Below the pieces are notes generated by a model that was not told the origin of the DNA, did not search any database, and saw only the letters and a list, made by a program, of their open reading frames with translations. A stretch of DNA of 53,273 nucleotides, taken from positions 1-53,273 of the forward strand of contig JAFLEE010000029.1 of the NCBI GenBank assembly GCA_017302015.1. Reading direction: 5' to 3'. Below, piece by piece: positions 5,247 to 30,347 of this stretch; positions within the stretch are counted from its first letter, which is position 1, and each line of letters begins with the position of its first letter. Source of the stretch: Spirochaetota bacterium. GTDB taxonomy: Bacteria; Spirochaetota; UBA12135; COTS27; JAFLEE01. A program made the translations under genes and the position numbers.

Positions 5247-5735
5247 ATGAAAAAACCTGCACCAACCCTTTCCCACCTCGACGCCGAGGGGCGCCCCGGC
5301 ATGGTGGATGTGGGGTCGAAATCGCCCACCGCGCGCACGGCCCGGGCCGAGGCCATCGTCGATTTCACCCCCGCGCTCGCCCGCGCCCTTCGGCGCACCG
5401 GCCGCAGCGCCAAGGGCAACGTCCTCGATACGGCCCGCGTCGCCGGGGTCCTCGCCGCGAAAAAAACCGCCGAACTCATCCCCCTCTGCCACTCCCTGCC
5501 CCTCGACCATGTGGATGTCCAGGGCCACTGGAAGGGCTCCTCCCTGGTCCTCACCTCCACGGCCTCCTGCCGCGGGGCCACGGGCGTCGAGATGGAGGCC
5601 CTCACCGCCGTGGGCCTCGCGGCCCTCACCGTCTACGACATGTGCAAGGCGGTGGACAAGGGCCTCGTCATCCGCGCCATCCGCCTCCTCGAAAAAACCG
5701 GCGGCAAGTCGGGGACCTTCCGGGCCGAAAAATGA
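5247..5735 (+). CDS. moaC: Cyclic pyranopterin monophosphate synthase MoaC
   Basis: 162 residues, the usual MoaC length. MoaC acts after MoaA and converts the 3',8-cyclo-dihydro-GTP product to cyclic pyranopterin monophosphate, the first tricyclic intermediate of molybdenum cofactor. The family hallmarks are present: M-V-D-V near the N-terminus, L-I-P-L-C-H-S-L-P with the active-site histidine, G-V-E-M-E-A-L, and Y-D-M-C-K-A with catalytic aspartate and lysine. It begins the plus-strand cofactor unit. Its stop overlaps the start of the next gene (ATGA). The 5' leader contains two stem-loops that may control translation. Its partner moaA is in the convergent nar operon. Confidence 0.95.
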   Translation: MKKPAPTLSHLDAEGRPGMVDVGSKSPTARTARAEAIVDFTPALARALRRTGRSAKGNVLDTARVAGVLAAKKTAELIPLCHSLPLDHVDVQGHWKGSSLVLTSTASCRGATGVEMEALTAVGLAALTVYDMCKAVDKGLVIRAIRLLEKTGGKSGTFRAEK

Positions 5736-6754: not shown

Positions 6755-6765
6755 AGGGGGATGCG

Positions 6766-7968
6766 GTGGCGAAGGACCTCCTCCCCTTACCAAGCGCCTG
6801 GGATCTCATCGCCCGGGAAGTGAAACCCTTGGGCGCCGAAGCGGTCGACCTCGAGGCGGCCCTCCACCGCGTGCTCGCCCAAAACGCCGTCGCGGAACGC
6901 GACCTTCCTCCGTTCCACCGGGCGACGATGGACGGCTACGCGATCCGCAGCGCCGAGTTCACCGACGGGAGCCGTTCGTTCCCCGACGCGGGATTCCTCC
7001 CCGCCGGCGGCGAACCTAGGGACCGAGTCCCCGCCGGGGCCGCCCTGCGCATCATGACGGGGGCCGGTGTGCCCCCCGAACTCGACGCCGTCATCCGCAT
7101 CGAGGATTGCGTCGTCGAGGGCGGTGCGGTTCGGTTCACCTGCGATCCCCCGCGCCCCTTCGCCAATATCGCGCGAAGGGGCGAGGACCTCGCCAAAGGG
7201 GCCGTCGTGGCTGCGGCGGGACGCCGCCTGCGCGCCATGGATCTCGGGGCGCTGGCTTCTTGCGGCGTTCTGCGGCCGAGGGTCGCGCGCCTGCCTCGGG
7301 TTTCCATCCTCTCCACGGGCGACGAGGTTGCGGAGGGCGAGGGACCGGTCTCAAGCTTCCAGATCCGTGATTCCAACCGCTACACCCTCCAAGCCCATCT
7401 GGGGGCCCATTGGGCCATCCATGGGCCACGCCTCGAGCGGCGGGCGGACCGGCGCGACGACTTGCTGGATTATTTCCAGTCCCAGGGGGATCGCGACCTC
7501 GTTCTCACCAGCGGCGCCGTCTCCGCGGGCGATCTCGACTTCATCCCGGATCTCGCCCAGGCCGCCGGATACCGCCGGGTGTTCCATGGCGTCGCCATCA
7601 AACCCGGGAAACCCGTTTTTTTCGGCCTACGGGAGGATGGCGGCGTCCTCCTCGCCCTTCCCGGAAACCCCTACGCGGTGCAGGCGGCCTGCGCCCTCTT
7701 CGTCGACCGCGTCATGGCCGCCTTCTCCGGGATGATGCCCGAGCCGTGGGCCGCCTTCGCCCTTTCGGGGGCCCGGACGGCCAAGACTCCCTTCGACGAG
7801 TTTTTCCCCGTCACGGACACGTCCGAGGGGCGGGTGCAAGGCGTGCCTTGGAACGGCTCGGGCGACGTGCGCGCCCTGGTCTCGGCGACCGGGATCGCTC
7901 GCCATCCGGCGGGCAAGAAGGGCCTCGAAGCCGGTGAGATCATCCCGGTCTATCGCTTCGATTCGTAG
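6766..7968 (+). CDS. moeA: Molybdopterin molybdenumtransferase MoeA
   Basis: 400 residues, normal length for MoeA, which inserts molybdate into adenylylated molybdopterin. Recognisable segments are A-T-M-D-G-Y-A (linker of domain I), I-M-T-G-A followed by P-x-x-x-D-A-V-I-R, S-T-G-D-E-V, D-S-N, T-S-G-x-V-S-x-G-D-x-D, and L-P-G-N-P. The start is GTG at 6766, five bases after a strong AAAGGGGG; no better ATG is in frame. It follows the mogA-mobB stop by 11 bases and precedes the permease by 16, so all four genes should be one transcript. Confidence 0.93.
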   Translation: MAKDLLPLPSAWDLIAREVKPLGAEAVDLEAALHRVLAQNAVAERDLPPFHRATMDGYAIRSAEFTDGSRSFPDAGFLPAGGEPRDRVPAGAALRIMTGAGVPPELDAVIRIEDCVVEGGAVRFTCDPPRPFANIARRGEDLAKGAVVAAAGRRLRAMDLGALASCGVLRPRVARLPRVSILSTGDEVAEGEGPVSSFQIRDSNRYTLQAHLGAHWAIHGPRLERRADRRDDLLDYFQSQGDRDLVLTSGAVSAGDLDFIPDLAQAAGYRRVFHGVAIKPGKPVFFGLREDGGVLLALPGNPYAVQAACALFVDRVMAAFSGMMPEPWAAFALSGARTAKTPFDEFFPVTDTSEGRVQGVPWNGSGDVRALVSATGIARHPAGKKGLEAGEIIPVYRFDS

Positions 7969-7984
7969 GCCCGGGGGACGCGAG

Positions 7985-8722
7985 ATGGATTCCCATGCGG
8001 TCCTATTGCCGGTGCTGTTCTTCGGGATCGCTTTCCTCTATAGCAGCGTCGGGCATGCGGGGGCCTCCGGCTACCTCGCGGTCATGGCGCTCGTCTCGGC
8101 GGCGCCCGAGTCCATCCGCCCCACGGCGCTGATCCTGAATATCGTCGTCGCCAGCGTCGCGAGCGTCCAATACCTCCGGGCGGGCTGCTTCGACGCGCGC
8201 GTGTTCTTTCCGTTCGCGCTCCTCGCCGTGCCTTCGGCCTACCTCGGCGGCCGCGTGGCGCTCCCCGGCCATGGCTTGAAGGCCGCCATCGGCGTGGTGC
8301 TCCTCGCCTCCGCCTGCCTCATGCTCGTGCGCGCTTTCCTTCGGCCCCGGGAGAGGGTGGGTCCGCCGCCGATCCCCATCGGCCTCCTCGGCGGCGGGGC
8401 GATCGGCTTCATCTCGGGGCTCACCGCCGTGGGCGGGGGCATCTTCCTCAGTCCCCTCCTGCTCTATTTCGGGTGGGCCGAGGCGCGCAAGGTCTCGGGC
8501 GTCGCGGCGGTCTTCATCCTCGTCAATTCCATCGCCGGGCTCCTCGGGCAGGCGGGCCGAGGCCTTCCCCATGGCCGGGCACTGTTCCTCGCCGTGGTCG
8601 CGGTCCTCGTCGGCGGGCTCATGGGTTCGCGCTTGGGAAGCACCCTTTTCGACCGGCGGGCGATCCTGAGCGTTCTCTTCCTCGTGCTCGTGATCGCGGG
8701 CGTGAAGATGATCGCGATCTGA
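7985..8722 (+). CDS. TauE/SafE family membrane permease
   Basis: 245 residues, almost entirely hydrophobic, with about eight predicted membrane segments in two similar halves. The two half-signatures are visible: Y-S-S-V-G-H-A-G-A-S-G-Y in the first half and G-L-T-A-V-G-G-G-I-F-L-S-P-L in the second. TauE/SafE proteins are inner-membrane carriers for sulfite, sulfoacetate or other small anions. Its place at the end of the moa/moe unit suggests an anion connected with molybdenum or sulfur handling, but the substrate is an inference. ATG 7985 begins the first membrane helix and has GGGGGA upstream. It ends ten bases from the convergent mobA stop, with no visible terminator between. Confidence 0.85.
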   Translation: MDSHAVLLPVLFFGIAFLYSSVGHAGASGYLAVMALVSAAPESIRPTALILNIVVASVASVQYLRAGCFDARVFFPFALLAVPSAYLGGRVALPGHGLKAAIGVVLLASACLMLVRAFLRPRERVGPPPIPIGLLGGGAIGFISGLTAVGGGIFLSPLLLYFGWAEARKVSGVAAVFILVNSIAGLLGQAGRGLPHGRALFLAVVAVLVGGLMGSRLGSTLFDRRAILSVLFLVLVIAGVKMIAI

Positions 8723-8731
8723 GCCCTCGCT

Positions 8732-9370
8732 TCAGCGCGCGCGGGGGTCCGAGGGAAGGGAATACCGGGCGTGAAGGCGTTCCTCAAGGAGTCCGGCGAG
8801 TTCGGGCGTGTTGGCGCTTTCGAAGGCGAGGGGTTCCTCGTCCAGGATCGCTTGGCCGTCGAGGCATCGGGGAGCGCTGGCCTCCAGTCGGCCCTTGAGC
8901 CCCGGAGAGCGACCTTCCACCCAGAGGCCCTCGCGGATACCGGCCCACCAATGGCGCGTGAGCAGGCAGGGCCAGGGTTCGAGTCGGCCTTCCAGTCGGT
9001 AGCACGCGTTTTGTCCGCTCTTCCTGAGGTCCCAGAGGGCTCGCAGGCCGCGCGACGGGAAATGGGGCATGTCGACGGGGATGAAAAGAATCGCCCGGGC
9101 GGGGGTGCGTTCGAATGCCGCCTCGATGCCGGAAAGCGGACCGCGTCCGGGATGCAGATCTTGGACCATGGGCATTCCGAGGATGCGATGGGCCTCGGGG
9201 CGATTAGTGATGAGAATGGGCTCGCAGGAAAGTTCCCGGAGGGTTTCGGCGATGCGGGTGGCGTATGAGCCGCGCCCGAGGGGGAGGAGCGCCTTATCGC
9301 GCCCCATGCGTAGGCTCTGCCCCCCCGCGAGGATCGCGCCTACCGCATCGATGGAACTCAACTGCCCCAC
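8732..9370 (-). CDS. mobA: Molybdenum cofactor guanylyltransferase MobA
   Basis: About 212 residues. It opens with the nucleotidyltransferase motif L-A-G-G-Q-S-x-R-M-G-x-D-K-A, which binds GTP, and has the metal-binding V-D-M-P segment about 75 residues later. MobA attaches GMP to Mo-molybdopterin to make the bis-guanine dinucleotide form used by NarG-type enzymes. The start is uncertain. No ATG is in frame close to the domain. GTG at 9370 is given; TTG at 9361 (GGGG just upstream) and TTG at 9421 (overlapping the stop of the preceding gene) are alternatives. It is the last gene of the minus-strand nar operon, which matches its role in maturing NarG. Confidence 0.85.
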   Translation of the reverse strand: MGQLSSIDAVGAILAGGQSLRMGRDKALLPLGRGSYATRIAETLRELSCEPILITNRPEAHRILGMPMVQDLHPGRGPLSGIEAAFERTPARAILFIPVDMPHFPSRGLRALWDLRKSGQNACYRLEGRLEPWPCLLTRHWWAGIREGLWVEGRSPGLKGRLEASAPRCLDGQAILDEEPLAFESANTPELAGLLEERLHARYSLPSDPRAR

Positions 9371-9417
9371 GCTTGGGGCGACCGTGTCGGGGAATGCCGC
9401 TCGGGACGCGCCATCTA

Positions 9418-9948
9418 TCAAACGCTCACGCCTTGGGGAGAAGGCGCGGTTTGGGGAACGCCGATGGTTTGCCCGTGGGCCTCCAAGGCGGCGGGAAGCA
9501 ATTCGATGGGATCGCCGGGAACGACGAAGCCGCCGTGGAGGACGCGGGCGAAAATGCCCTCCTTCGGCATCACGCAATCGCCCGTTTGGAAGGCGATGGC
9601 GCAGGGCTTATGGCAGACCTTCCCGATCTGGGTGACTTCGAGGAGGGCCTCGGCGCCCATGCGGAAACGGGTGCCCACGGGGATCTCGGGGAGCGAGAGG
9701 AATTCGCTGGTGATATTCTCCGCGAAGGCGCCGGGGCGCAGCCGGGGCATCTTCTCCCGCGCCTTGGCGATGCTCTCCATGGCGAGGAGGCTCACCTGGC
9801 GGTGGCCGGGGCCCGCGTGGGCATCGTGGCGGATGCCGGCCTCGGTCATGAGTTCGATGCGTTCGCAATTGACCTTGGGCATGCCTTTGCGTTCGCTGAT
9901 GGAGACGGCCACGACTCGGCCGACGGCGTTGGGGTTCTTCATGGTCAT
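9418..9948 (-). CDS. MOSC domain protein
   Basis: 176 residues, one MOSC (Mo cofactor sulfurase C-terminal) domain of the short YiiM-like type. Conserved features are a G-I-x-x-D-A-H-A-G segment, R-Q-V-S-L-L, G-x-F-A-E-N-I-T, and a C-x-K-P-C motif (K-V-C-H-K-P-C) with the cysteine typical of the family. MOSC proteins bind molybdenum cofactor or carry sulfur for it; some reduce N-hydroxylated compounds. It starts with ATG overlapping the moaA stop (ATGA), so translation is probably coupled. An alternative ATG lies two codons downstream. Confidence 0.85.
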   Translation of the reverse strand: MTMKNPNAVGRVVAVSISERKGMPKVNCERIELMTEAGIRHDAHAGPGHRQVSLLAMESIAKAREKMPRLRPGAFAENITSEFLSLPEIPVGTRFRMGAEALLEVTQIGKVCHKPCAIAFQTGDCVMPKEGIFARVLHGGFVVPGDPIELLPAALEAHGQTIGVPQTAPSPQGVSV

Positions 9949-10928
9949 CCTCCGATGGCCTGCATGGGGCGCGTCATCCGCGTGGCGAGATCCTGCGGGC
10001 TCTCATGCCCGGGGGATTTGAGGTCGAGGGATCCCTGGATGGCCGCGAGGAAGGCGTCCGCATCGCGCGCGGCGAGGGAGGGCCGCAGATCGACCTCTTC
10101 CCCCGGTTTGGAGAAGAGGCAGGGCCGGAAACGCCCCCGGCCGGTGATGCGCAGGCGGTTGCAGCCCCCGCAGAAACTGCGCGTCATGCTGGCGATGAAC
10201 CCGATGCGCCCAGGCTTCCCGGGGGAGGCGTAGTCCATGCTCACCGCGTGGGGGTCGGCGGCCAGGGCCTCGAGGCGATGGTTCGCCTGGAGGCGGGCGA
10301 GGAGTTCGCCATAGGGCACGAGGCGGCCGGAGCGCCAGCCATTGGAACCGAAGGGCATGTACTCGATGAAGCGCAGGTGGCGCCCGCTCTCCAGGGCCCA
10401 GGCGGCCGCCCCGTCCACTTCATCCAGGTTCATGTCGCGCAGCACCACCATATTGAGCCGGACCTTAAGCCCGGCTTCTTCCGCTTGGCGCACGGCCTCC
10501 AGAACGCCCGGGAGGGCGTCCACCCGGGTGATGGCCTTGAAGCGCTGGGCATTCAAGGAGTCCACGCTTACATTGAGGGATCGGATCCCCGCCCGCTCGA
10601 GGGCCGGGAGCCAGGAGGAAAGGTGCACCCCGTTGGTGGTCAGGGCGAGCTCGAACCCCAGTTCCCGCCGCAGCGCGCCGAGGCGGGAAAGGCCTCCGGA
10701 GAGGTCCCGCCGCACGAGCGGCTCCCCGCCGGTGAGCCTGATTTTTCGTACCCCCGCGCGTTCCACGAGGACGCGCGCGGCGAAGAGGATCTCGTCCCAG
10801 GTCAGTTCTTCGGGGACGATCTGCTCCCCGCCCACGGGGTGGCAATAGGCGCAGGCGAGATTGCAGCGCTCGGTGAGCGAGAGCCGCAGGTAATCGTGGG
10901 GTCGACCGAGCCGGTCCATGAGCACCAT
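9945..10928 (-). CDS. moaA: GTP 3',8-cyclase MoaA
   Basis: 327 residues, the expected length. This radical SAM enzyme makes the first committed intermediate of molybdenum cofactor from GTP. The N-terminal C22-x3-C26-x2-C29 cluster motif, T-G-G-E-P, and the C-terminal F-C-x2-C-N-R-L-R plus a distal P-C for the second cluster are all present. The chain ends in Gly-Gly, as in functional MoaA, where the tail reaches into the active site. It lies eight bases after the cytochrome gene in the nar operon, so cofactor synthesis is co-induced with the enzyme that needs it. Its partner moaC is in the convergent plus-strand unit. Confidence 0.95.
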   Translation of the reverse strand: MVLMDRLGRPHDYLRLSLTERCNLACAYCHPVGGEQIVPEELTWDEILFAARVLVERAGVRKIRLTGGEPLVRRDLSGGLSRLGALRRELGFELALTTNGVHLSSWLPALERAGIRSLNVSVDSLNAQRFKAITRVDALPGVLEAVRQAEEAGLKVRLNMVVLRDMNLDEVDGAAAWALESGRHLRFIEYMPFGSNGWRSGRLVPYGELLARLQANHRLEALAADPHAVSMDYASPGKPGRIGFIASMTRSFCGGCNRLRITGRGRFRPCLFSKPGEEVDLRPSLAARDADAFLAAIQGSLDLKSPGHESPQDLATRMTRPMQAIGG

Positions 10929-10936
10929 GGGTTGTC

Positions 10937-11527
10937 CTACTGGGGCGGGGAACTTCTTCGGTGCTGGAGGCGGTAGCGGGACTTGAAGGCCTTCAGGAGG
11001 TTCTCCAGGCCGTAGAGGAGGAAGAAGGTGGCCAGCACGCCCATCCCGATATGGAATAGGTTCTGCTTGAAACGGTGGGGGAAGAGGCGCCAGAATCGGC
11101 CGCTCTCTTCATCGGTGGGCAGGGTGCCTTCCCGGAGTTCGGTCTTGTCGGGGATGCCGTCGCGGTCGAGGTCGAGGTCTTCGGGGAGGGCATCGATCAT
11201 GGCCGCGGGGTTTTTGCGCCCCTCGGCGAGGGCGCTGCGCCCGAGGCGGAGGATGAGTTCGTTGCCGAAGGGATTGAGGATGGGGCTATGGACCTTCTGC
11301 CCCGGGGCGATGGCACGCCGCGAGGTGGCCAACCGCTCCAGTTCCTCCCCCTTCAGGGCGCCGAGTTGGCCTTCCTTCAGGCCTTCGGGGCCGTCGGCGT
11401 TGGCGTGGCAAAGGGCGCAATCGACCTTCGTGCCCGAGTTCGTGAGGATGAATTGCTGGAACTCGGGGTAGGCCGAGAGCCGGGCGGGCAGGAGGAGCAG
11501 GGCGAGGAGGGGAATCAATCGCATCAT
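10937..11527 (-). CDS. Membrane-anchored monoheme c-type cytochrome
   Basis: 196 residues. A signal peptide (about 1-19, ending L-S-A-Y) is followed by one haem c motif C37-A-L-C40-H41. A calcium-loop-like D-L-D-x-D-x-I-P-D segment lies near 118-127, and a C-terminal membrane helix (about 158-178) is followed by a basic tail. The soluble part would sit in the periplasm, anchored at its C-terminus. Placed directly after cytochrome b, it is the likely electron acceptor of the Rieske/cytochrome b module, in the position of cytochrome c1 or f. It is not a recognisable c1 or f sequence, so that role is inferred from order. A tandem ATG-ATG start lies two bases after the cytochrome b stop. Confidence 0.75.
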   Translation of the reverse strand: MMRLIPLLALLLLPARLSAYPEFQQFILTNSGTKVDCALCHANADGPEGLKEGQLGALKGEELERLATSRRAIAPGQKVHSPILNPFGNELILRLGRSALAEGRKNPAAMIDALPEDLDLDRDGIPDKTELREGTLPTDEESGRFWRLFPHRFKQNLFHIGMGVLATFFLLYGLENLLKAFKSRYRLQHRRSSPPQ

Positions 11528-11529
11528 GG

Positions 11530-12624
11530 TCAGTGCCCCTTGATCAGCAGGGTGATCGGCTCGCCGAAAACGGTGACGACGACGAGGTAGAGGAAGGCGA
11601 AGAAGGCGAGGAATCGCAGGGTCCGGCGCGAGGTATTGGCGAAGATCCAGGGGGTGAAGAAGAGGACCGCGCCGACGACGGTGGTGGCGACGAGAATGAC
11701 CCAGAAGGGGACGAGTTCCATGGGGTAATAGGCGAAGAAGAAGTACCATTCGGGCTTGATCCCGTCGGGGGTGGAGCCCAGGGCGTCGAAGGGCGCCAAG
11801 AGCGGGTAGCCGAAGAGGGATTCGAACGGGATGCACAGGGCGATGATGAACATGACGACGAAGAAGACCGCCCACACCCTGAGGTCGTTGACGATGAAAT
11901 CGGGGAAGAAGGCCTCGCTCTTGCCGGTGGGGCGGTCGACGCCCTGGCTCATGCCGTGGAATTGGATCTGCAGAAGGTGGAGGCCGAGGAGCGTCAGGAT
12001 GCTCACGGGGAGCACGACCACGTGGAGCACGAAGAAGCGCGAGAGGGTCGCTTGGCCGACCGAATCGCCGCCTTGGATGACGTGGATGAGTTGGCCCGGC
12101 AGATCCTTGAAGTTCCCGGGGAGGTAATCCTGGATGGCGCCGATGGACTGGAGCCCCACCTTGGTGGCGTTCACCGCCACCTGGTGCCAGGGGAGCAGGT
12201 AGCCCGTGAAGCCGAAGCCGAAGGTGATGAAAAGGAGGATCACCCCGCTCAGCCAGGTGATCTCCCGCGGCTTCACGAAGGCCTTCATGAAGAAGACGGT
12301 GAAGAGGTGGAGGAAGACGCAGGCGATCATGCAGGAGGAGGACCAGGCGTGGAGGTTGCGGATGACCGAGCCCCCGGGGACCTGATGGGAGATGTAGCGC
12401 ACCGAATCGTAGGCCCCGCTGACGGTGGGCTCGTAGTAGAAGAGCATGATGAGCCCGGTGACGGCGAGGATCGAGAAGAACAGCAGGGTGAGCCCGCCGA
12501 GGAAATAGGCCCACCGCAATTTGTGGATGGGGACGGTCTTCTTCTCGACCATGTCGTGGAGGTTCATCTTTTCGAGGGGAAAGCGTTCCCGAAGGAACGC
12601 CGCCACGCCGGTCCAGAGTCTCAT
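11530..12624 (-). CDS. Cytochrome b of a Rieske/cytochrome b complex
   Basis: 364 residues with about seven membrane helices, equivalent to cytochrome b6 plus subunit IV in one chain and shorter than mitochondrial-type cytochrome b. Four haem-ligand histidines are present. H92 and H106 (helix B) have 13 residues between them, and H201 and H216 (helix D) have 14, which is the b6-type spacing. The quinol-site motif P-E-W-Y is at 291-294, preceded by P-D-G-I-K. It should oxidise quinol together with the Rieske domain encoded just upstream. Its ATG overlaps the stop of the NarI-Rieske gene (ATGA), which favours tight co-production of the two subunits. Confidence 0.9.
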   Translation of the reverse strand: MRLWTGVAAFLRERFPLEKMNLHDMVEKKTVPIHKLRWAYFLGGLTLLFFSILAVTGLIMLFYYEPTVSGAYDSVRYISHQVPGGSVIRNLHAWSSSCMIACVFLHLFTVFFMKAFVKPREITWLSGVILLFITFGFGFTGYLLPWHQVAVNATKVGLQSIGAIQDYLPGNFKDLPGQLIHVIQGGDSVGQATLSRFFVLHVVVLPVSILTLLGLHLLQIQFHGMSQGVDRPTGKSEAFFPDFIVNDLRVWAVFFVVMFIIALCIPFESLFGYPLLAPFDALGSTPDGIKPEWYFFFAYYPMELVPFWVILVATTVVGAVLFFTPWIFANTSRRTLRFLAFFAFLYLVVVTVFGEPITLLIKGH

Positions 12625-13895
12625 GAGCGTTCTCCCTTGGCGATGAAGACTTGGTACTCGCCTAAGCGGGCCGCCTCCGGGGCGGTGACGAGGGCCCCCT
12701 TCGCATCCTTGAGCAGGTGGGGGATGGTCCGCAGCCCCGTCGGGGTGGGGCCGTCGACGCGCCCCCCGTCCGCCACGCGGAAATGGGAGACATGGCAGGG
12801 GCAGACGACCAGGCCGCCCTCGGCCTTATTATTGACGGTGCACCCGAGGTGCGGGCATTTGGCGCTGTAGAGCAGGGGAAGGCCCGCGGCGTCGAGGAAG
12901 GCCAGGCCGGGGGACATCTGGTAGTCGATGAAATAGGTTCCGCTGTCCCGTTTCAGGTCCTTCAGGTTCGCCACGAAGAGGGTCTCGGATTGCATGCGCT
13001 CGAGTTCCAGGGCCTTCTGCTCGGCGGTGGCCTTGAGTTTCTTCACCTTGAGGGAGAGGAGTTCCTCGCGCTCCTCCTTGGTGAGGTCGGGCCCCTTGAA
13101 GAACGGGACGACCTTGTCGAGGGTGCCGACGCCGATGAGCACCGCCCCGATGCCGACCCCGGTGGCCCCCCGCAGGAATTGGCGGCGGCTCTCGTCCTCG
13201 AGGGCGGCCCGCTCCACCAGGTCTTTCCGCCGCCTGAAATTCCAGATGACGATCTGGAGCCTGCGGGGAATATAAGTGAACGGGAGGGAGACCATGTGGA
13301 TGAGGCGGGAGAACGGGATGAGCCCCACGATGACGAATGCGAGGACGGCGTGGGCCTTGATGATGAAGGGGAGGTCCTTCACCAGGGCGAGGTCGGGTTG
13401 GAGGCGGAAAAGGGAGTCGAAATACGGGGCGAGGACCCCCGTGGCCCAGAGGCTCCCCCAGCGCTGCAGGGTCGCCGTGAGGATTCCCAGGCCGACCTGG
13501 AGGAGGAGCAGCACGAGCACCGCGAGGTCCATGGTCGTGGTCACCGATTGGATGCGCCCGGAGAACACCCGGCGCACGGTGAACAGCGCGAGGCCGATGA
13601 GCGAGATGAACGCCGCGATGAGGCCGGTGGCCTCGAAGGCGAGGAGGATGCGGTGGTCGGCGAGGAGGGCGCGGAAGAACCCCGGGAAGAGGAAGACCGC
13701 GAAATGCCCCAGGAGCACCGCGAAGATGCCCAGATGCCAGGGAAGCGAGGCCCAGAAGAGGGTCCGGTGCTCCAGGAATTGGGAGGAGAGGCTGGAGTAG
13801 GAGAAGCGCTTCACCGTGAAGCGCAGGATCCCGACGACCAGGCAGAGTGCGAGGGCGAGGTAGGGTAGCACGCCGAAGAAAAAAAGATCGAACAT
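12621..13895 (-). CDS. narI: NarI-Rieske fusion: nitrate reductase gamma subunit joined to a Rieske [2Fe-2S] domain
   Basis: 424 residues. Residues 1-210 are NarI, the membrane di-haem b subunit that feeds quinol electrons to NarH. All four haem histidines are present in NarI spacing (H54 and H64; H182 and H200). After a basic cytoplasmic linker comes R237-R238-Q-F-L-R-G and a hydrophobic helix (about 243-262), the layout of a Tat-type signal anchor as used by Rieske proteins. A charged helical segment (270-305) leads to a Rieske domain with C347-P-H349-L-G-C352 and C365-P-C367-H368, the full set of cluster ligands and disulfide cysteines. NarI alone is about 225 residues, so this is a true fusion in one uninterrupted frame. 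AGGAG lies eight bases before the ATG. The next gene is cytochrome b. Confidence 0.9.
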   Translation of the reverse strand: MFDLFFFGVLPYLALALCLVVGILRFTVKRFSYSSLSSQFLEHRTLFWASLPWHLGIFAVLLGHFAVFLFPGFFRALLADHRILLAFEATGLIAAFISLIGLALFTVRRVFSGRIQSVTTTMDLAVLVLLLLQVGLGILTATLQRWGSLWATGVLAPYFDSLFRLQPDLALVKDLPFIIKAHAVLAFVIVGLIPFSRLIHMVSLPFTYIPRRLQIVIWNFRRRKDLVERAALEDESRRQFLRGATGVGIGAVLIGVGTLDKVVPFFKGPDLTKEEREELLSLKVKKLKATAEQKALELERMQSETLFVANLKDLKRDSGTYFIDYQMSPGLAFLDAAGLPLLYSAKCPHLGCTVNNKAEGGLVVCPCHVSHFRVADGGRVDGPTPTGLRTIPHLLKDAKGALVTAPEAARLGEYQVFIAKGERS

Positions 13896-13949: not shown

Positions 13950-14507
13950 TCATCCATTCGCTCCGAGGGGGACGGGCGGGGGCGCCGCGGGGACCGCGGC
14001 TTTTTGGGCATCATGGCACGCGGCGAGCCAGAGTTCGGCCACCGTCCGCCAAGGGGATCCCTGGAGCGCCACGACGCATTTCTCCAGCACGGGAAGGAGG
14101 ACTTCTTCGCGGAGGAGCCGGGCGCGGGAGGGGTCGCCCAGGCGGGAGGCGAGGGTGAGCACGTGGGGGAGGAAGTCGGGGAGTTCCCCCCCGAGGTCGA
14201 TGCCGTGGTCTTGGCAAGCTTCCTGGAGGCGCACGAGGAATTGGGTCCGGCGCTGGGTGTCTTCCCCGAACAAATGGTGGCCCGCGTAGAGCGGGGCGGC
14301 GGGCATGAGGTCGAAGGCCCGCGTGTAGCCCTCCTGGAGTTCGCGGAGCGGTAATTCGGCGAAGGCGAGGGAAACGCGGGAGAGCGCCTCGGCGAGGTGG
14401 GGGTTGCCCTCGGTGAGCGGGACGAGTTCGGCGAAGAGCCCGTCGCGGCTGGAGAGGGGATAGGCGCCGAGTCGGGAGAAGGATTCGAGGGGGCCCGGGG
14501 TTCCCAT
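13950..14507 (-). CDS. narJ: Nitrate reductase assembly chaperone NarJ
   Basis: About 185 residues, all-helical, of the NarJ/TorD chaperone family. NarJ binds the N-terminus of apo-NarG and is needed for cofactor insertion and membrane docking; it is not part of the final enzyme. The family pattern A-F-D-L-x-P with H-L-F-G-E-D is visible around residues 65-86. The ATG at 14507 overlaps the narH stop by one base (TGATG); a GTG one codon earlier is an alternative. Its place between narH and narI is the classical nar order. The last 20 residues are alanine/proline-rich. Confidence 0.88.
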   Translation of the reverse strand: MGTPGPLESFSRLGAYPLSSRDGLFAELVPLTEGNPHLAEALSRVSLAFAELPLRELQEGYTRAFDLMPAAPLYAGHHLFGEDTQRRTQFLVRLQEACQDHGIDLGGELPDFLPHVLTLASRLGDPSRARLLREEVLLPVLEKCVVALQGSPWRTVAELWLAACHDAQKAAVPAAPPPVPLGANG

Positions 14508-15997
14508 CACGCCCCCCGTTGCGGCGCCGGGTGCGACCCGAAGCCGTTGCAGCCCTTGCAGGCCTCCGCGTCGCGGCCCGCGTAGGTCGTTTCCTCCGCC
14601 TGGATCGGCGGCATGACGAACCGGTCGTAGACCGTCGCCATGGTGGTCATGCGGTAGATCTCGTCGGCGACCGCCGGGGTGAGGCCCGCGGCGCGCAGCA
14701 CCTCGCCCGCCTGGTCCGCGCCGGCCTCAGGCACGGAGAGGGAGCGGCGGTAGAGGCGCACGGCGAGGAGTTTCTTCATCACGTCCGTGACGACCCCCGT
14801 GTTCCCGGCGGAGAAGAGTTTGGAGAGGAAGGAGAGGGGGATGCGCGAGGCCTCGATGGTGGAGAAGAACTCCTGGGAGAGGGTGCTCACGACGCCCTGG
14901 TCGCTCTTGCCCATGGCGGGCAGGAGGGGCGGCACGTAGAAGAGCATGGGGTTGGTGCGGTACTCCACGTGGAGCGGCAGGGCCAATTTCCAGACCTTCA
15001 CGTACTTGTAGACCGGCGAGGCCTGGGCCGCGGCGATGAAGGCATCGGTGATCCCGTTGTCCTTGGCGGCCTGGATGACGGCGGGATCGTGGGGGTCGAC
15101 GAAGAGGTCGCGCTGGCTCTCGACGAGGTGCTCGTCCTTCACGCACATGGAACTCGCCACCTTGTCGGCGTCGTAGAGCAGCACGCCCAGGTAGCGGATG
15201 CGCCCGACGCACGAGTGGAAGCAGGCCGGCGGCTGGTTCGTCTCCAGGCGCGGGTAGCAGAGGATGCATTTCTCCGATTTGCCGGTCTTCCAATTGTAGT
15301 AGACCTTCTTGTACGGGCAGGCCCCCACGCACGCGCGCCAGCCGCGGCACTTGTCCTGGTTGACGAGCACGATGCCGTCCTCCCCGCGCTTGTAGAGGGC
15401 ACCCGAGGGGCAGGCGGCCACGCAGGAGGGGTTGGCGCAATGGTTGCAGATGCGCGGCACGTACATCATCGCCACCCGCTCGACCTCGAAGAGCTGCTGG
15501 CGCTCGAGTTCGCTGAGGGCGGAGAGGTTGGGGTCGTTCTCGGCGTACACCGGGGATCCGGAGAGGTCGTCGTCCCAATTTGGGCCGGCCTTGATCTCCA
15601 TGGGCGCCCCGGTGATCTGCGAGATGGGGATCGCCGTGGGCTGGTCGTCCCCGGCGTGGCTGTCGAACAGGTCCTGGTAGCGGTAGGTCCACGGTTCGTA
15701 GTACTCGTCGAGGCCCGGTTGGTTGGGGTTGTAGAAGAGGTTGAAGAACGCGCTCCCCTTGCTCTGGGACCGCAGGGTCAGACGACCCCCCTTGCGCTCC
15801 CAGCCGCCCTTGTACTTCTCCTGGTCCTCCCAGCCGATGGGGAACCCGGTGCCCGGCTTGGTCTCGACGTTGTTCCACCACATGTATTCCGCCCCGGCGC
15901 GGTCGGTCCACACGTTCTTGCAGGCGACGGAGCAGGTGTGGCACCCGATGCATTTGTCGAGGTGGAACACCATGGAGGTTTGGGCGCGTATGTTCAT
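14507..15997 (-). CDS. narH: Respiratory nitrate reductase beta subunit NarH
   Basis: 496 residues, normal for NarH. It carries four cysteine clusters that hold three [4Fe-4S] and one [3Fe-4S] centre and pass electrons from NarI to NarG. The first is C16-x2-C19-x2-C22-x3-C26. The third is C-R-G-W-R-A-C-x3-C-P, in which tryptophan replaces a cysteine, the NarH mark of the [3Fe-4S] site. The C-terminal cluster region C-x2-C-Y-P-R with V-G-R-I-R-Y-L-G-V-L-L-Y-D-A-D is very close to the E. coli protein. There is no signal peptide; it is cytoplasmic. It starts nine bases after narG. Confidence 0.97.
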   Translation of the reverse strand: MNIRAQTSMVFHLDKCIGCHTCSVACKNVWTDRAGAEYMWWNNVETKPGTGFPIGWEDQEKYKGGWERKGGRLTLRSQSKGSAFFNLFYNPNQPGLDEYYEPWTYRYQDLFDSHAGDDQPTAIPISQITGAPMEIKAGPNWDDDLSGSPVYAENDPNLSALSELERQQLFEVERVAMMYVPRICNHCANPSCVAACPSGALYKRGEDGIVLVNQDKCRGWRACVGACPYKKVYYNWKTGKSEKCILCYPRLETNQPPACFHSCVGRIRYLGVLLYDADKVASSMCVKDEHLVESQRDLFVDPHDPAVIQAAKDNGITDAFIAAAQASPVYKYVKVWKLALPLHVEYRTNPMLFYVPPLLPAMGKSDQGVVSTLSQEFFSTIEASRIPLSFLSKLFSAGNTGVVTDVMKKLLAVRLYRRSLSVPEAGADQAGEVLRAAGLTPAVADEIYRMTTMATVYDRFVMPPIQAEETTYAGRDAEACKGCNGFGSHPAPQRGA

Positions 15998-16006
15998 GGC
16001 GGGATC

Positions 16007-19000
16007 CTAGAAGACGACCTTGTCCATCTTTCGGACGGTGACGTGGGTTTCCCGGTTGACGCCGGTGGGCCCCCAGTAGTTGAAGCCGTAGGAGAATTGG
16101 CCGTAGCCGCCGATCATGAGGAGGGGCTTGAGCCGGATGCGCGTGAGGCTATTGTGCCCCCCGGCGCGGCGGCCGCCCCGCAGCGGCGATTTCGGAACCG
16201 AAAGCGTGCGCTCGGGGGAATGGTAGATCATGCAGATCCCCCGGGGGATGCGCGCGCTCACGTTGGCGCGCGTGCACACCACGCCGTTGTCGTTGTGCAC
16301 CTCGACCCAGTCGTTGTCGGCGATGGCGAGGACGGCGGCGTCCTTGTCGTTCATCCAGAACGGCTCGAGGCCGCGCGAGAGCGTGCGCATGCGCAGGGTG
16401 TCGCCGTAGGTGGAGTGGATCTCCCATTTTCCGTGGGGGGTGAGGTAATTGAGGAGCATCGAGTCGGGCCGCGTCTTGTCGAAGTCGCCATACTTCTCGG
16501 GCTGGATGCGCGCCTTATGGGTGGGCAGGTTCTCCCCGTAGGCCCGATAGGCCTCGTGGTCGAGGTAGAAGTGCTGGCGCCCGGAGAGGGTCCGCCAGGG
16601 GATGCCCTCCTCGACGTTGAGCACGTAGGCGTTATAGGTGCGGCCGCCGTTGATGTTCCCCGTCCAATAGGGGGTGGTGAGGTAGCGCTTGGGCTGGGAC
16701 ACGAGGTCGTCGAACTTCATGCGCACGCCCCGGTTGTCCCGGGAGAGGTGGGAGAGGTCGAGCCCCGTCTTGTGCCCCTCGGCCTCGAAGGCGCGGTGGG
16801 CCAGTTCGCCGTTGGTCTCCGGGGCGAAGTGGAGGATATATTCGCAGACGTCCCGGTCGTGGCGCAGGGAGGGGTAGGACTTGCCGTTCCATTTCTCCAT
16901 GGGATGGCCCTCGTGGTAGGCGTCGTAGAGGTCGTCGACCGGATAGAGGCATCCGTGGGCGCCCAGGCCGTTCTCCCGAACCCCCTCGCCCAGCGAGATG
17001 TACTTCCGGTACACCTGGGTGAGGTCGCGGCTGACCAGCTTGATGTTCGGCATGGTCTTGCCTGGGATGGCTTCGCATTCCCCGCTGATCCAATCCTTCA
17101 CCGCGGGTTGGGCGAGTTCGGCCGGGGTGTCGTGCAGCAGCGGCGTGAGCAGCACGTCGGGCACGGGATCGGGCAGGAATTCCTTCGCCATGGCCTCGGT
17201 GGCCTCCGCGATGCGCCGGAAGATCTCCCAGTCGCTCTTGGATTCCCAGCACGGAGTGACCGCCTTCTGGAGGGGATGGATGAAGGTGTGGAGGTCGGTG
17301 GAGTTGAGGTCGTCCTTTTCGTAGAAGGTGGCCGCGGGGAGCACGATGTCGGAATAGAGGGCCGAGGTGTCCATGCGGAAATTGAGGTCGACGACGAGGT
17401 CGAGCTTCCCCAGGGGGAGCTTCTCCACCCAGTTCACCTCCTTCACTTCCGAGCGCTCGATCTCCGGGGCGATGGCGTTGGTGTGGGTGCCGAGGTAGTG
17501 CTTGAGGAAGAACTCGTGGCCCTTGGCGGACGACAGGAGCGCGTTGCCCCGCCAGATGTACCAAACCCGGGGGAAACTCGCCTCGTTGTCCGGGTCCTCC
17601 ATGGCGAAGCGCAGGCGTCGGGCCTTGAGTTCGTCGATGAGGTACTGGGTGATCGAGGCCTCGGTGGTATGCCCGGCGGCCCGGGCTTCGGCGAGGACCT
17701 GGTGGTTGGGGCGATTGAACTGGGGATAGCAGGGCAGCCACCCGTTGCGCACCGCGCGGATCTGCTGGTCGACGGTGTGCCCGGTGGTCATGCGGTGCTC
17801 GGGGTCGGCGACGTTGCACACGTCACCGAATTTCTTGTCATAGCGCCACTGGTCGGAGTGGAGGTAGTGGTAGGAGGGGGCGTTCTGCAGCCGCGGGGGG
17901 ATCTTCCAGTCCGAACCGAAGGCGAGCGGCGCCCACGCGGAGACGGGGGCGAGTTTCTCCTGGCCGACGTAATGGTTGAGGCCGCCGCCGTTGACGCCGA
18001 TGCAGCCCGTGAGCATCTGGGCGGTGATAATGGAGCGGTAGACGAGGTTATTGTGGTACCAGTGGTTGGCCCCGGCGCCGATGATGACGGAGCATTTGCC
18101 CCCCGTCTGCTCCGCCGTGCGGGCCCATTCCCTGGCGAAACGGATGACGTCGGAGGCGCTGATGCCGGTGAAGGGCTCCTGCCAGGCGGGCGTGTAGGGG
18201 TGGCCGCCTTCGGCGTACTCCACGGGCCTTTCGCCGGGGAGCCCGCGGGAAACCCCGTATTGGGCGCACATGAGGTCGAAGCAGGTGGTCACGAGGACTT
18301 CGCCCCGTTCGGTCATCACCCGGCGCACCGGTACGCGGCGCGTCACGGTCGCACCCGATTCCCCATCGGTGAAGTCGGGGAGTTCCAGGGATTCCACGAG
18401 GTCGTGGGACTCGAGGAACGAAAGGCGCGGCACGAAATCCACCCCGTCCTCGGTCTTCCACTTCAGGTTCCACGCGCCTTTCTTCTTCTGCCAGCGGTGG
18501 CCCACGGTGCCCGCGGGCATGAGGGGGCCGTCGCTGCCCTCGTCCCAGATGAAGAACTTCCATTCCGCATGCTCGACCTGGGACGTCGCCTTGAATTGGG
18601 AGGCGCGCAAATAGGCCCCGGCGCGGTGGCCGCCGTTCTCCCCGGGTTCCAGGCAGACGAGGAAGGGGGCGTCGGTCTGGCGGCGCAGGTAATCCTCGAA
18701 GGCTCGGGTCTTCTTCTCCACATACCACTCGCGCAGGATCACGTGGGTGACGGCCATCCAGAAGGCGCTGTCCTGCCCCGCGTGGATGGGCACCCACTGG
18801 TCGGCGCCCTTGGCGACCTGGTTGAAGTCCGGGCTGAAGACCACGAGTTTCGAGCCGTTATGCTTGGCCTCCACCAGGAAATGGGCGTCGGGCGTGCGCG
18901 TCATGAACGGGTTGGAGCCGACGACGGCGATGAACTTGCTGTGGTACCAATCGGCGCTCTCGGCCACGTCGGTCTGCTCGCCCCAGACCTCGGGGGAGGC

Positions 19001-19630
19001 CGGCGGCAGGTCGCAGTACCAATCGTAGAAACTGAGGCTCACCCCGCCCATGAGCTGCAGGAACCGGGAGCCCGCGGCGTAGCTGATCATCGACATGGCG
19101 GGGATGGGGGAGAAGCCCACGACCCGGTCGGGGCCGTGCTTGCGGATGGTATGGAGATTGGAGGCCGCGATGAGTTCGGCGAGTTCTTCCCAGGTCCCCC
19201 GCCGGAAGCCGCCCTTGCCCCGCGCGCTGTGGTATTTTTCGCGCTTGACCGGGTCGCAGACGATGGAACCCCAGGCCGCCACCGGGTCCTTGGGGAACGC
19301 GGCGCGGGCTTCGGTCCAGAGGTCCCAGAGCGCTCCGCGTACATAGGGGTACTTCACACGCAGGGGGCTGTAGAGGTACCACGAGAACGAGATGCCGCGC
19401 TGGCAGCCGCGGGGCTCGTAGGGGGGCACTTCGGCGGAGAAGCGCGGGTAGTCGAGGGCCTGGAGCTCCCACGAGACCAGCCCGTTCTTCACGTGGATGT
19501 TCCACGAGCAGGAGCCGGTGCAATTGACCCCGTGGGTGCTGCGCACGACCTTGTCGTGGGTCCAGCGGTTGCGGTAGAAGTCCTCCCATTGGCGGACCTC
19601 GGGGTTGAGGATGTCCTTGATCCAACTCAT
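16007..19630 (-). CDS. narG: Respiratory nitrate reductase alpha subunit NarG
   Basis: 1207 residues, close to E. coli NarG (about 1247). It reduces nitrate to nitrite at a Mo-bis-MGD centre. The N-terminal FS0 cluster ligands are H33, C37, C41 and C76, the His-plus-three-Cys set of NarG. The segment [12 protein letters not shown], characteristic of NarG and part of the Mo site, is intact, as are [10 protein letters not shown] and R-T-P-D-A-H-F. The N-terminus (M-S-W-I-K-D) has no Tat signal, so the enzyme should face the cytoplasm as in E. coli. ATG 19630 was chosen because homology starts there. The longer frame upstream lies inside the preceding cytochrome gene. Confidence 0.97.
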
Positions 19631-19670: not shown

Positions 19671-20453
19671 TCATCGCGCGGCTCCGGTGATGCGCGCGCG
19701 CACGCTGCGCAGGCGGCCCCGATAGGCCACGGCGAGGCCGGCGAAGAAGAGAAGCGCGCCGAGGGCGGCGACGGGGTGGAGGGGGAACTCGTTGGGGGCC
19801 GGGGGCTCCTTTTCGAGGGCGGCGAAGAACGCCACGAGGTGGACGGCCTCCTGGCGGGTGACGGGATGGTCCTTGTAGAGCGCCGACATGATCTTGAAGC
19901 CCGGCTGCTGGCAGGCGACGCGCAGGCTATCGCGGCCATAGCGCTTATAGACGTCGTGGAGGTCGGGCCCGAGGAAGGGGGAATTGCCCATGGGCCCCGG
20001 CCGCACGGAATGGCAGGAGGCGCAGGCGGTGCCCCCGGCGGCGAGCCGCCGCTGCCCCTGGAAGAGCGCCCGGCCTACCGCCGCATCGGGCGGATCGAGT
20101 TTGGCCTCGGCCAGCTTGTTCTGGCGCTGCTGTTCGCGGTCGAGGCGGGCGGCGGCGGCGGCGTCGCGCAGGAGCGCCGCGATGAGGGAGGCGTCGAAGG
20201 TCCCGATGACCTTGGACCGCATGCGCTCCAGGGCCGCATCGAGGGCGCTCGGGGCGAGGGTCTTGGCGGAGACAAGGTCGGGCCCGGTGAGTTTGCCCCG
20301 CCCGATGGTATGGCACCCCGAGCAGGACCGTAGGAACGCCGTCGCGTTCGGGTCGGCGGCCGTATTCGCGTCGGCGCCGCCTTCCGCGGCGGGGAGGGGG
20401 GCGAGGGCCGCGAGGGCGGCGAAGAGGATCCAAGGGGTTGGTTTCATGGGCAT
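19671..20453 (-). CDS. Membrane-anchored diheme c-type cytochrome
   Basis: 260 residues. A signal peptide (about 1-23) is followed by two haem c motifs, C44-S-G-C47-H48 and C144-A-S-C147-H148, and a single C-terminal membrane helix (about 227-246). Both haems would be periplasmic. It lies between narK2 and narG, the position of the diheme NarC in Thermus-type nar clusters. It may take electrons from, or deliver them to, the Rieske/cytochrome b module or a downstream reductase; the partner is inferred. ATG at 20453 has AGGA close upstream; ATG two codons later (20447) has better spacing to the same site. Confidence 0.8.
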
Positions 20454-20460
20454 ATTTCCT

Positions 20461-21957
20461 TCAGCACGGGGCTTCGGCCTTGGCGCGGGCGTAGTACCAC
20501 CAAGTGAGGGCGACGCAGGTGAGGTAGAAGGCGATGAAGCCCCACAGCGCGGCGTCGGCATGGCCCGTGGCGGCCAGCGAACTCCCGAAGCTCTTGGGGA
20601 TGAAGAAGCCGCCATAGGCGCCGATGGCGCCGGAGAATCCCAGGACCGCGGCGCTCTCGCGCCCCGCCTGCACGGGGTCGGCGGGCGCATCCTTCCCCCG
20701 GCCCCTGCCGAGGAAAATGATGGGGATCATGCGGAAGGTCGAGCCGTTGCCGATGCCGGAGAGGGCGAAGAGCGCGAGGAAGGAGGCGAGGAATCCGGGG
20801 AAGGATCCCTCGGACCCCTGCCGCGGCAGGAAATGGAGCACCCCCAGCACGCCGGCGATCATGGCGAGGAAGACGGCGAGGGTCACCCGGGCCCCGCCGA
20901 CCTTATCCGAGACCCATCCCCCCAGGGGGCGCAGGATCGCGCCCACGAGGGGCCCGAGGAAGGCGTACTTCACCGCGATCACGTCGGGGAATTGGGATTT
21001 GATGAGGATGCCGAAGCCGCTGGAGAAGCCGATGAAACTGCCGAAGGTGCCGAGGTAGAGCCAGCACATCACCCAGTTATGCTTTCGACCGAAAATGACC
21101 GATTGTTCGCGGAACGACGCCCGCGCCGTCGCGAGGTCGTTCATGCCGAACCAGGCGAGCAGCGAGAAGAGCAGGATGAAGGGGATCCAAAGGAAGGCCG
21201 CGTTCTGGAGCCAAACCTTCTTCGTGGCGGGCCTCGGGTGGCCCTCGCTGCGCGTTTCGATCGCCGCCGTCGCCGTGGCGGAAGCGGGGGCGGCGGCTTG
21301 GACTACCGGTTGCTTATGGGCGGTCGTTGGGGCCGCCTCCTGGGGCCCCCCGGCGACCGGGCCGAATAGCGAGAGGCCGATGGCGATGGGGGCCACGAAT
21401 TGGACCACCGAGACCCCGAGGTTCCCCAGGCCGGCGTTTAGGCCCGTGGCCAGGCCCTTCTTCGATTTGGGGAAGAAGAAGGAGATATTGGCCATGGAAG
21501 AGGAGAAATTTCCCCCGCCGAAGCCGCAGAGCGCCGCGATGGCGATGAAGACGGTAAACGGCGTCGCGGGGTCCTGCACCGCCCGGCCCATCCATAACGC
21601 GGGGATGATGAGGGAGAGGGTGGAGATCGCCGTCCACCTGCGCCCGCCGAGGATGGGAACGAGGAACGAATAGAAGATACGCAGGGTCGCCCCCACCAGG
21701 GGCGGGATGGAGGCCAGGAGGAATAATTGGTTGCGCGTGAAGGCGAAGCCGATGTCGTTCAGTTTGACCGCCACCACGCTCCAGAGCATCCAGACGATGA
21801 AGGCCAGCATGAGCGAGGGCACCGAGATCCAGAGATTCCGGTAGGCGACCTTGGAGCCGCCCGCGGCCCAGAAGGCCGGGTCGTCTGGGCGCCAATCCTG
21901 GATCTCCCGGCCGGCTCTCGTCTCCACGGGGTTCGCGCGCTTCGGATCTGGGTTCAA
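20461..21957 (-). CDS. narK: NarK2-type nitrate/nitrite transporter (MFS)
   Basis: About 498 residues, 12 membrane helices. It carries the nitrate signature as in E. coli NarK: G-N-F-S-S-S-M-A-N-I-S-F-F-F-P then K-G-L-A-T-G-L-N-A-G-L-G-N-L-G. A second G-x-N-G-S-T-F-R-M-I-P segment, typical of the second nitrate-binding motif, is in the C-terminal half. This type exchanges nitrate for nitrite. An alanine/glutamine-rich insertion of about 45 residues lies in the central cytoplasmic loop. No ATG is available near the start. TTG at 21957 has GGAG six bases upstream and follows the previous stop by 20 bases; GTG 21927 is the alternative. Confidence 0.88.
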   Translation of the reverse strand: MNPDPKRANPVETRAGREIQDWRPDDPAFWAAGGSKVAYRNLWISVPSLMLAFIVWMLWSVVAVKLNDIGFAFTRNQLFLLASIPPLVGATLRIFYSFLVPILGGRRWTAISTLSLIIPALWMGRAVQDPATPFTVFIAIAALCGFGGGNFSSSMANISFFFPKSKKGLATGLNAGLGNLGVSVVQFVAPIAIGLSLFGPVAGGPQEAAPTTAHKQPVVQAAAPASATATAAIETRSEGHPRPATKKVWLQNAAFLWIPFILLFSLLAWFGMNDLATARASFREQSVIFGRKHNWVMCWLYLGTFGSFIGFSSGFGILIKSQFPDVIAVKYAFLGPLVGAILRPLGGWVSDKVGGARVTLAVFLAMIAGVLGVLHFLPRQGSEGSFPGFLASFLALFALSGIGNGSTFRMIPIIFLGRGRGKDAPADPVQAGRESAAVLGFSGAIGAYGGFFIPKSFGSSLAATGHADAALWGFIAFYLTCVALTWWYYARAKAEAPC

Positions 21958-21977
21958 GGGGGGCTCCGGTTTCGGGA

Positions 21978-23309
21978 TCAGGAGGGCTGGGCGGGGAGGA
22001 TGGCGGCCTTCGCCTTCTCCTCGAATTGGTCGCGCAATTGCGGGGAGGCGCGGTGGAGGATGCGCCACACGACGATATGGAGCCAGCCGAGGGCGGCGAG
22101 GGTGAGCACGAGGAGGATGGCGAAGGTGGTCTGGGGGATGCCGCTCCATTTCAGGGCGTAGGCGAAGAGCGGGGGAAGGATGAAGCCCCCGAGCGCGCCC
22201 AGGAGGCCCACGAGGCCCCCCACGGCGCCGACGTCATGGGGAAAATATTCGGGGATGTACTTGTAGACGGCGGCCTTGCCGAGGCCCATCCCGCAGCCGA
22301 CGATGAAGATGAGGGCCGTGAAGAGGGCCGGCCCCATGACGAATTGCATGACGTTGAGTTGCCCGGAAGCGCTGATATGCTTGGGCACGTAGAGCACGAT
22401 GTGCCCCTCGGGCGCCGCCAAGAAGAAGAGCGCCGCCGACATGAGGGCGAAGACCCCGTACATCATGCGCCGCGCGCCGAACCGGTCGGAAAGCCATCCC
22501 CCCAGGGGGCGGAGCAGGCTCGCGGGAAAAATGAAGAGCGCGGTGAGGAGGGCCGCGGTGGAGAGCGGCAGGTGGAAGACGTCGACGTAGTACTTGGGGA
22601 GCCAGACCGAGAGCGCCACGTAGGCCCCGAACACCACCACGTAGTAGAAACTGAAGCGCCACACCCGCACTTGGGAGAGGGGCCGGAGGAGATCCGCCGC
22701 CTTCCGCCCGGCCCCCGGCTTGCGGTCGAGCTTGGGCGTCCCGAACCAGATGAGCGCCGCCATGAGCAGGCAGAGGGTGCCGTAGAGGAAGGGCACGAAG
22801 CGCCAGCCGCCCGGCACGAACCCGCCGACGAACCCCGCGGCGGGGATCACCGCGATGAGCAGCGGCCCGATGAACTTGGTCACCGAGGCGCCCACGTTGC
22901 CCGCGCCGAAGACGCCCAGGGCGAAGCCTTGGCGTTCGCGGGGGAACCAGGCGGCGTTCCACGCGATCCCGACGGAGAAGGCGTTGCCCGCGAGGCCGAC
23001 GAAGAACGAGAGCCAGAGGAGGTGGGTGAAGGTGTCGGCGCGGCTGATGAGGAAGGCCGGGATCGCCGTGACGGCGACGAGGAGCGTGAGCACGAGGCGC
23101 CCCCCGAACCGGTCGGTGAGGATGCCGAAGAGGAGGCGCCAGAGGGAGCCGTTTAGGATCGCCACCGCCGTGAGCCAACCGAACTGCACGTCGGTGAGCC
23201 CGAACTCCTTGCGGATCGGGATGCCCAGCACGCCGAACATGAGCCAGACCGCGAACATGAGCGTAAAGGCGCAGGTGGATAGGATCAGGATGGGGATGCG
23301 ACCGGTCAT
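21978..23309 (-). CDS. narK: NarK1-type nitrate transporter (MFS)
   Basis: 443 residues, 12 membrane helices, first gene of the nar operon. The nitrate-signature region reads G-N-A-F-S-V-G-I-A-W-N-A-A-W-F-P followed by G-F-A-L-G-V-F-G-A-G-N-V-G-A. This is the NarK1/NasA-like form, thought to bring nitrate in with protons. Pairing with a NarK2-type antiporter matches the NarK1-NarK2 pairs or fusions of other denitrifiers. NarK1 would start uptake before nitrite has accumulated. It is transcribed from the promoter at 23465-23493. The ATG start begins directly with the first helix. Confidence 0.88.
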   Translation of the reverse strand: MTGRIPILILSTCAFTLMFAVWLMFGVLGIPIRKEFGLTDVQFGWLTAVAILNGSLWRLLFGILTDRFGGRLVLTLLVAVTAIPAFLISRADTFTHLLWLSFFVGLAGNAFSVGIAWNAAWFPRERQGFALGVFGAGNVGASVTKFIGPLLIAVIPAAGFVGGFVPGGWRFVPFLYGTLCLLMAALIWFGTPKLDRKPGAGRKAADLLRPLSQVRVWRFSFYYVVVFGAYVALSVWLPKYYVDVFHLPLSTAALLTALFIFPASLLRPLGGWLSDRFGARRMMYGVFALMSAALFFLAAPEGHIVLYVPKHISASGQLNVMQFVMGPALFTALIFIVGCGMGLGKAAVYKYIPEYFPHDVGAVGGLVGLLGALGGFILPPLFAYALKWSGIPQTTFAILLVLTLAALGWLHIVVWRILHRASPQLRDQFEEKAKAAILPAQPS

Positions 23310-29273: not shown

Positions 29274-29293
29274 GGGTCGCCTCCGCAGCGTTT

Positions 29294-30328: not shown

Positions 30329-30347
30329 GGGACACCTCCCGGTGCGC

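Follow-up and report, generated by a model that had tools for sequence, protein, structure and literature searches.

In the textbook account of the nitrate reductase NarGHI, NarI itself oxidizes quinol as part of a redox loop, and nitrate reductase and the bc complex are normally separate respiratory machines. In the stretch of DNA analyzed here, a 53,273-nucleotide contig from a Spirochaetota bacterium (the window), one gene joins NarI to a Rieske protein within a nar operon. This locus raises the question of whether such a fusion is genuine and, if it is, whether it ties nitrate reductase to a bc complex and by which route electrons would then reach nitrate.

The fusion gene is one uninterrupted frame of 424 amino acids on the minus strand (12621-13895) that encodes a NarI domain and a Rieske domain; stop codons are present on the plus strand across the same positions. 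In Pfam, Nitrate_red_gam matches residues 4-218 (1.1e-55) and the Rieske domain PF00355 matches residues 331-391 (4e-6, above the cut-off). The protein scores 120.7 bits against the NCBIfam narI model TIGR00351, for which the cut-off is 105.55, and its Rieske half reaches at best 28-35 bits against models of the bc1/b6f Rieske subunits, below their cut-offs of 97-275. Residues H54, H64, H182 and H200 align with the haem ligands H56, H66, H187 and H205 of E. coli NarI. The Rieske domain holds the [2Fe-2S] ligands C347/H349 and C365/H368 together with the disulphide pair C352/C367, and between the two domains lies the twin-arginine motif SRRQFLRG (residues 236-243, with the pair at R237-R238). 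An AlphaFold model of the protein, made from three sequences, has a pLDDT of 56 and low confidence for reach and contacts, and was too poor to be taken into a fold search.

A scan of a genome collection found two further fusions at 50 and 46% identity, one of them from Candidatus Melainabacteria, with both genomes falling in a single taxonomic order. Mapping the taxonomic spread of the two-domain protein, a check proposed in a first-pass annotation of this DNA, recovered full-length fusions in 20 of 289 sampled genomes of the Melainabacteria-type class and, among 296 sampled genomes of the window's own phylum, in the window genome only, giving at least 21 species in total (the window and 20 further genomes). 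Plasmid searches returned separate NarI proteins and no fusion, and a scan of viral contigs found no fusion relatives. The four NarI haem b histidines are invariant in all 21 fusions, as are the Rieske CxH and CxxH ligands and the disulphide cysteines; R238 is likewise present in every one and R237 in 20. Because 20 other genomes carry full-length versions with invariant ligands, the fusion is neither a chance product nor an assembly artefact, and a frame error can be rejected on the same grounds. The first-pass annotation had reported NarI and Rieske in a single uninterrupted frame, all four NarI haem histidines, a twin-arginine-type anchor at R237-R238 and complete Rieske cluster ligands. 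The frame, the 20 relatives, the alignment with E. coli NarI, and the motif with its following helix bear out all four points; the coordinates were also right, although the gene had not been recognized as lying on the minus strand.

Table 1. Features of the nar operon, its bc module and the domains of the fusion protein, in window coordinates.
Feature	Position	Strand	Basis
moaA, molybdenum cofactor synthesis, next gene past the operon	9945..10928	-	TIGR02666 above cut-off
Monohaem cytochrome c, C-terminal membrane anchor	10937..11527	-	CALCH motif, terminal helix; relatives at equivalent position
Cytochrome b, b6-like, single polypeptide with PEWY	11530..12624	-	PF00033/PF00032; closest solved relatives cytochrome b6
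Rieske [2Fe-2S] domain, residues 304-424	12624..12986	-	PF00355; invariant ligands
Charged linker, residues 268-303	12987..13094	-	Low-confidence model draws a helix
Twin-arginine motif and sixth transmembrane helix, residues 236-266	13098..13190	-	SRRQFLRG; lowest hydropathy among the six helices
NarI domain, residues 1-220, five helices, four haem b histidines	13236..13895	-	Pfam/NCBIfam matches; histidines invariant in 21
narJ, chaperone	13950..14510	-	PF02613
narH	14507..15997	-	TIGR01660, 628 bits
narG, cytoplasmic type without Tat signal	16007..19630	-	PF00384/PF01568; likely start 19630 from alignment with Thermus NarG
NarC-like dihaem cytochrome c, C-terminal anchor	19671..20453	-	Two CxxCH motifs; blastp E 7e-22 to Thermus NarC
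NarK-type MFS transporter	20461..22149	-	PF07690; homologous to relatives' nar-linked transporters
NarK-type nitrate/nitrite transporter	21978..23309	-	TIGR00886 match below its cut-off

The gene order NarC-NarG-NarH-NarJ-NarI:Rieske-cytochrome b-cytochrome c is found at every complete locus, wherever the contig reaches. The NarC gene upstream of narG is absent from the first-pass annotation, as are the relatives of the fusion. NarG is 60% identical to Thermus NarG and, as it has no Tat signal, is taken to be cytoplasmic. The start codon of cytochrome b overlaps the stop codon of the fusion gene, and its four haem histidines and PEWY Qo motif are invariant in 19 genomes. The cytochrome c that follows has 196 amino acids, one CxxCH motif and a C-terminal helix, and no Pfam family or solved structure matched it; its conservation was read from the relatives' rows of the alignment and not from the window's row. 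The b6-type cytochrome b and anchored cytochrome c that had been described after the fusion gene thus agree with the Pfam matches, the CxxCH motif and the helix. Given the narCGHJI order with a NarC homologue and the added Rieske, cytochrome b and cytochrome c genes, the operon is, on gene content, of the Thermus narCGHJI type with a complete bc module attached.

A calcium-type motif, DLDRDGIPD, stands after the haem site of the bc-module cytochrome c. Genes for molybdenum cofactor synthesis flank the operon at 5225-10928, encoding a MoCF_biosynth/MobB fusion protein, MoeA, a MobA-like protein and MoaA. Elsewhere in the window, a 1962-aa open frame at 39421-45309 on the plus strand is opposed by an 1895-aa frame on the minus strand and has a weak apolipoprotein-like Pfam match only, and a row of sulfatase, ThuA, GFO/IDH/MocA oxidoreductase and xylose-isomerase-like genes at 26858-31121 resembles a sugar-degradation cluster.

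The two halves of the fusion also occur apart. Three-gene Rieske-b-c modules without NarI are found elsewhere in the Melainabacteria-type class (loci L073-L084), and ordinary separate NarIs occur in that class (L085-L088) and in the same phylum (L092). Genome G653 has a second, independent bc-Nar association, in which an unfused Rieske and cytochrome b-c pair, different from these modules (L093:9994-12001), lies directly upstream of an unfused narCGHJI operon (L086). Four of the unfused modules (L073, L075, L076 and L077) lie near a recurring gene set that encodes a protein of about 430-500 amino acids, a CPVL-containing protein and an RR-signal protein of about 225 amino acids, headed in some of them by a small cytochrome c. 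These genes perhaps represent another respiratory system.

The fused NarI domains form one clade in the NarI tree (support 100/99), which suggests that the fusion probably arose once and disfavors several independent fusions. In the Rieske tree, Rieskes from separate modules nest among the fused ones, and a clade of fused Rieskes is marginally rejected (AU p 0.043). The simplest reading that fits this tree would be a single fusion event, after which the bc module was in places released or exchanged. Since the phylum samples for the window and for the Melainabacteria-type class have no genome in common, the two belong to different phyla. We infer that the window operon was probably either gained horizontally or retained from an unsampled lineage.

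Whether the fused NarI still oxidizes quinol bears directly on the route of electrons. In E. coli NarI we take K86 to mark the quinol pocket near the distal haem, and a K86-to-Ala variant is among the solved chains (1y5i). The aligned residue is hydrophobic (V/I/L/A/M) in all 21 fused NarIs, being Ile83 in the window protein, and in 23 separate NarIs it is Lys (12), Arg (5), Tyr (4), His (1) or Gly (1). A basic K or R is thus present in 17 of 23 separate NarIs and in 0 of 21 fused ones (the alignment is gap-free against Thermus-type NarIs, and the row of genome G313 was left out of these counts). The site itself varies, as the Tyr residues belong to four ordinary NarIs of actinobacteria and Niallia; a basic residue here is common but not universal in the NarI family and is missing from the fusion. 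All fused NarIs also lack an equivalent of Y28. The window protein has Arg82 beside Ile83, and three relatives also have R/K one residue earlier. As the fused NarIs are one clade, loss of the K86-equivalent residue counts as a single inherited event. On the Rieske side, S370 is kept and a Phe (F372) is present in 21 of 21 fusions, where high-potential Rieskes have Tyr; this suggests a somewhat lowered Rieske potential, which would suit menaquinol.

The carrier genomes were also searched for other acceptors that a bc complex might serve. NirK had no match above the cut-off in any of the 21 fusion genomes, and NirS had none in the window genome, with only weak, partial Cytochrom_D1 matches in seven other carriers. 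In the window genome the operon's cytochrome b is the only one of its family, and the other two Rieske proteins are not of the bc type. The oxidase chain of that genome is separate, with alternative complex III-like genes beside an aa3 oxidase operon and cytochrome bd near a qNOR-like protein (L102/L103; assigned by reading the sequences). Members of the COX1 family that are not oxidase-sized have, judged by length only, the length of quinol NOR. In some carrier genomes no oxidase was found. G537 and G675 each have a second bc operon, which in G537 directly adjoins a terminal oxidase and in G675 lies on a short contig from which an oxidase may have been lost by assembly. This operon in G675, together with the soluble cytochromes c of small-genome carriers, weakens the idea that such carriers are without a cytochrome c acceptor. 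With no NirK, no convincing NirS and separate oxidase chains, the nar-linked bc complex appears to lack an obvious periplasmic partner, and nitrate would be its nearest acceptor; the acceptors covered were NirK, NirS and the oxidases, in genomes of which some are incomplete.

The reading that we favor, at slightly better than even chances, is a hard-wired quinol:nitrate oxidoreductase, in which a Thermus-type NarCGHI is combined with its own bc complex, quinol is oxidized at the bc Qo site rather than by NarI, with a Q-cycle coupled to the reduction of nitrate. Menaquinol would be oxidized at the Qo site formed by cytochrome b and Rieske, with one electron recycled through the b haems. The high-potential electron would leave the tethered Rieske by way of cytochrome c and/or NarC, reach the distal haem of NarI, and then move through NarH to NarG, where nitrate is reduced in the cytoplasm. 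NarI would serve mainly as a haem wire, and nitrate reduction would carry a Q-cycle besides the Nar redox loop. The physical tethering of Nar to the bc complex is well supported by what the genes predict; topology, complex, electron direction and proton gain are what we infer from them. In Streptomyces, Nar1 requires and co-purifies with the bcc-aa3 complex, and Falke et al. proposed a route from QcrC to NarI haem bD that would yield 4 instead of 2 protons (PMC7931247). In Thermus, NarI has NarC as an interaction partner, which is believed to pass electrons to periplasmic acceptors (PMC7694296). By analogy, the NarI-Rieske fusion would be a covalent version of the wiring proposed for Streptomyces Nar1.

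The strongest competitor, which we hold to be unlikely though worth serious consideration, places two parallel quinol oxidases on one scaffold, so that NarI oxidizes quinol for nitrate while the bc complex feeds other periplasmic acceptors through cytochrome c or NarC. All NarI haem ligands are retained, Arg82 beside the K86 position could still act in the quinol site of the window protein, carriers have soluble cytochromes c, and periplasmic reductases are believed to receive electrons from NarC in Thermus. However, the basic residue is gone from the aligned position in every fused NarI, the carriers have no NirK and no convincing NirS, and the oxidase chains of the window genome and G537 have their own quinol:cytochrome c reductases. 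This bears on the first-pass annotation, which had placed two quinol oxidases side by side: the physical coupling of Nar and bc that it foresaw is upheld by the conserved fusion, the operon and the complete bc module, but the side-by-side oxidases are doubtful because the basic residue kept in most separate NarIs is lost from all fused ones and neither NirK nor a convincing NirS accompanies them. Its suggestion of electron bifurcation found no specific support beyond an ordinary Q-cycle.

It is improbable that the fusion serves only co-expression, stoichiometry or membrane assembly (Sec, then Tat), with the protein cut after assembly or its halves exchanging no electrons. Unfused bc modules and unfused nar operons both occur in the Melainabacteria-type class, and the Rieske tree suggests that the bc module can leave the fusion; yet inspection by eye found no signal-peptidase site at the linker, gene adjacency already provides co-expression, and the change at the NarI quinol site would go unexplained. 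That the complex runs in reverse as a nitrite oxidoreductase, the role of a Thermus-like cluster with a NarC homologue in Nitrobacter (PMC7694296), and sends nitrite electrons through NarI and NarC to cytochrome c, is very hard to credit when NarG is so close to the respiratory Thermus enzyme, the bc complex with its Qo site and the NarK transporters suit nitrate respiration, and some carriers have no oxidase that could be found.

The favored reading also includes a route of assembly. Sec would insert the five NarI helices (N-out, C-in), and Tat would then translocate the Rieske domain, already folded and carried on helix 6, so that it ends up outside and adjacent to cytochrome b. Because five NarI helices come first, the Tat motif would face the cytoplasm and the Rieske domain would be placed on the outer side, where a bc complex needs it. 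Among the six helices the last has the lowest mean hydropathy, 1.77 as a family average against 2.11-2.56 for the others. As in dual Sec-Tat proteins, the fusion has an RR motif ahead of a weakly hydrophobic last helix, but by hydropathy five helices precede the motif, where known dual Sec-Tat proteins are N-in with an even number. The survey of such proteins (PMC5449189) took in only those whose motif is preceded by an even number of helices, so the 5+1 layout of the fusion would have been passed over. The fuller proposal, that NarI gave up quinol oxidation and is fed by the covalently tethered bc complex, so that proton translocation by a Q-cycle is gained on top of the Nar redox loop, in a new dual Sec-Tat N-out layout of 5+1 helices, we put forward tentatively, at a little under even chances. 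If true, it would provide a natural way to raise the energy yield of nitrate respiration and a new case of Sec and Tat jointly assembling a multi-helix membrane protein.

All parts of this system are known; what is new is that Nar is covalently joined to a complete bc module, and no description of a NarI-Rieske fusion was found in the open-access literature searched. Two machines are probably wired into one, which may gain more energy from nitrate. As we understand the archaeal pNar systems, their nitrate reductase genes are clustered with Rieske and cytochrome b genes, as in the window operon; their NarG is presumably exported and NarI absent, whereas the window has a NarG without Tat signal and a NarI. 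The window module has in common with bc/b6f complexes the Rieske ligands, the four cytochrome b haem histidines, PEWY and a cytochrome c subunit, but its Rieske rides on NarI. Its cytochrome b has a b6-like N-terminus, yet forms a single polypeptide and lacks the haem-ci cysteine of b6. The actinobacterial dual Sec-Tat proteins (QcrA, Sco3746) share with the fusion a twin-arginine motif before a weakly hydrophobic last helix with a cofactor domain (PMC5449189). Thermus thermophilus NarCGHJI resembles the window operon in gene order, in its dihaem NarC and cytoplasmic-type NarG, and in having a cytochrome c as fourth Nar subunit (PMC7694296). In Thermus, however, NarI is a protein of its own (229 aa) whose quinol site has Arg, and the nar operon is without the Rieske, cytochrome b and bc cytochrome c genes, all three of which the window operon has. 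In Streptomyces coelicolor, Nar1 is tied to the bc complex (PMC7931247), much as proposed here, but NarI and the Rieske protein QcrA are separate and an oxidase is included, whereas the window has a covalent link and bc genes within the nar operon. The Streptomyces association is hard to pin down, and a covalent fusion would make a bc-fed nitrate reductase directly testable in one complex.
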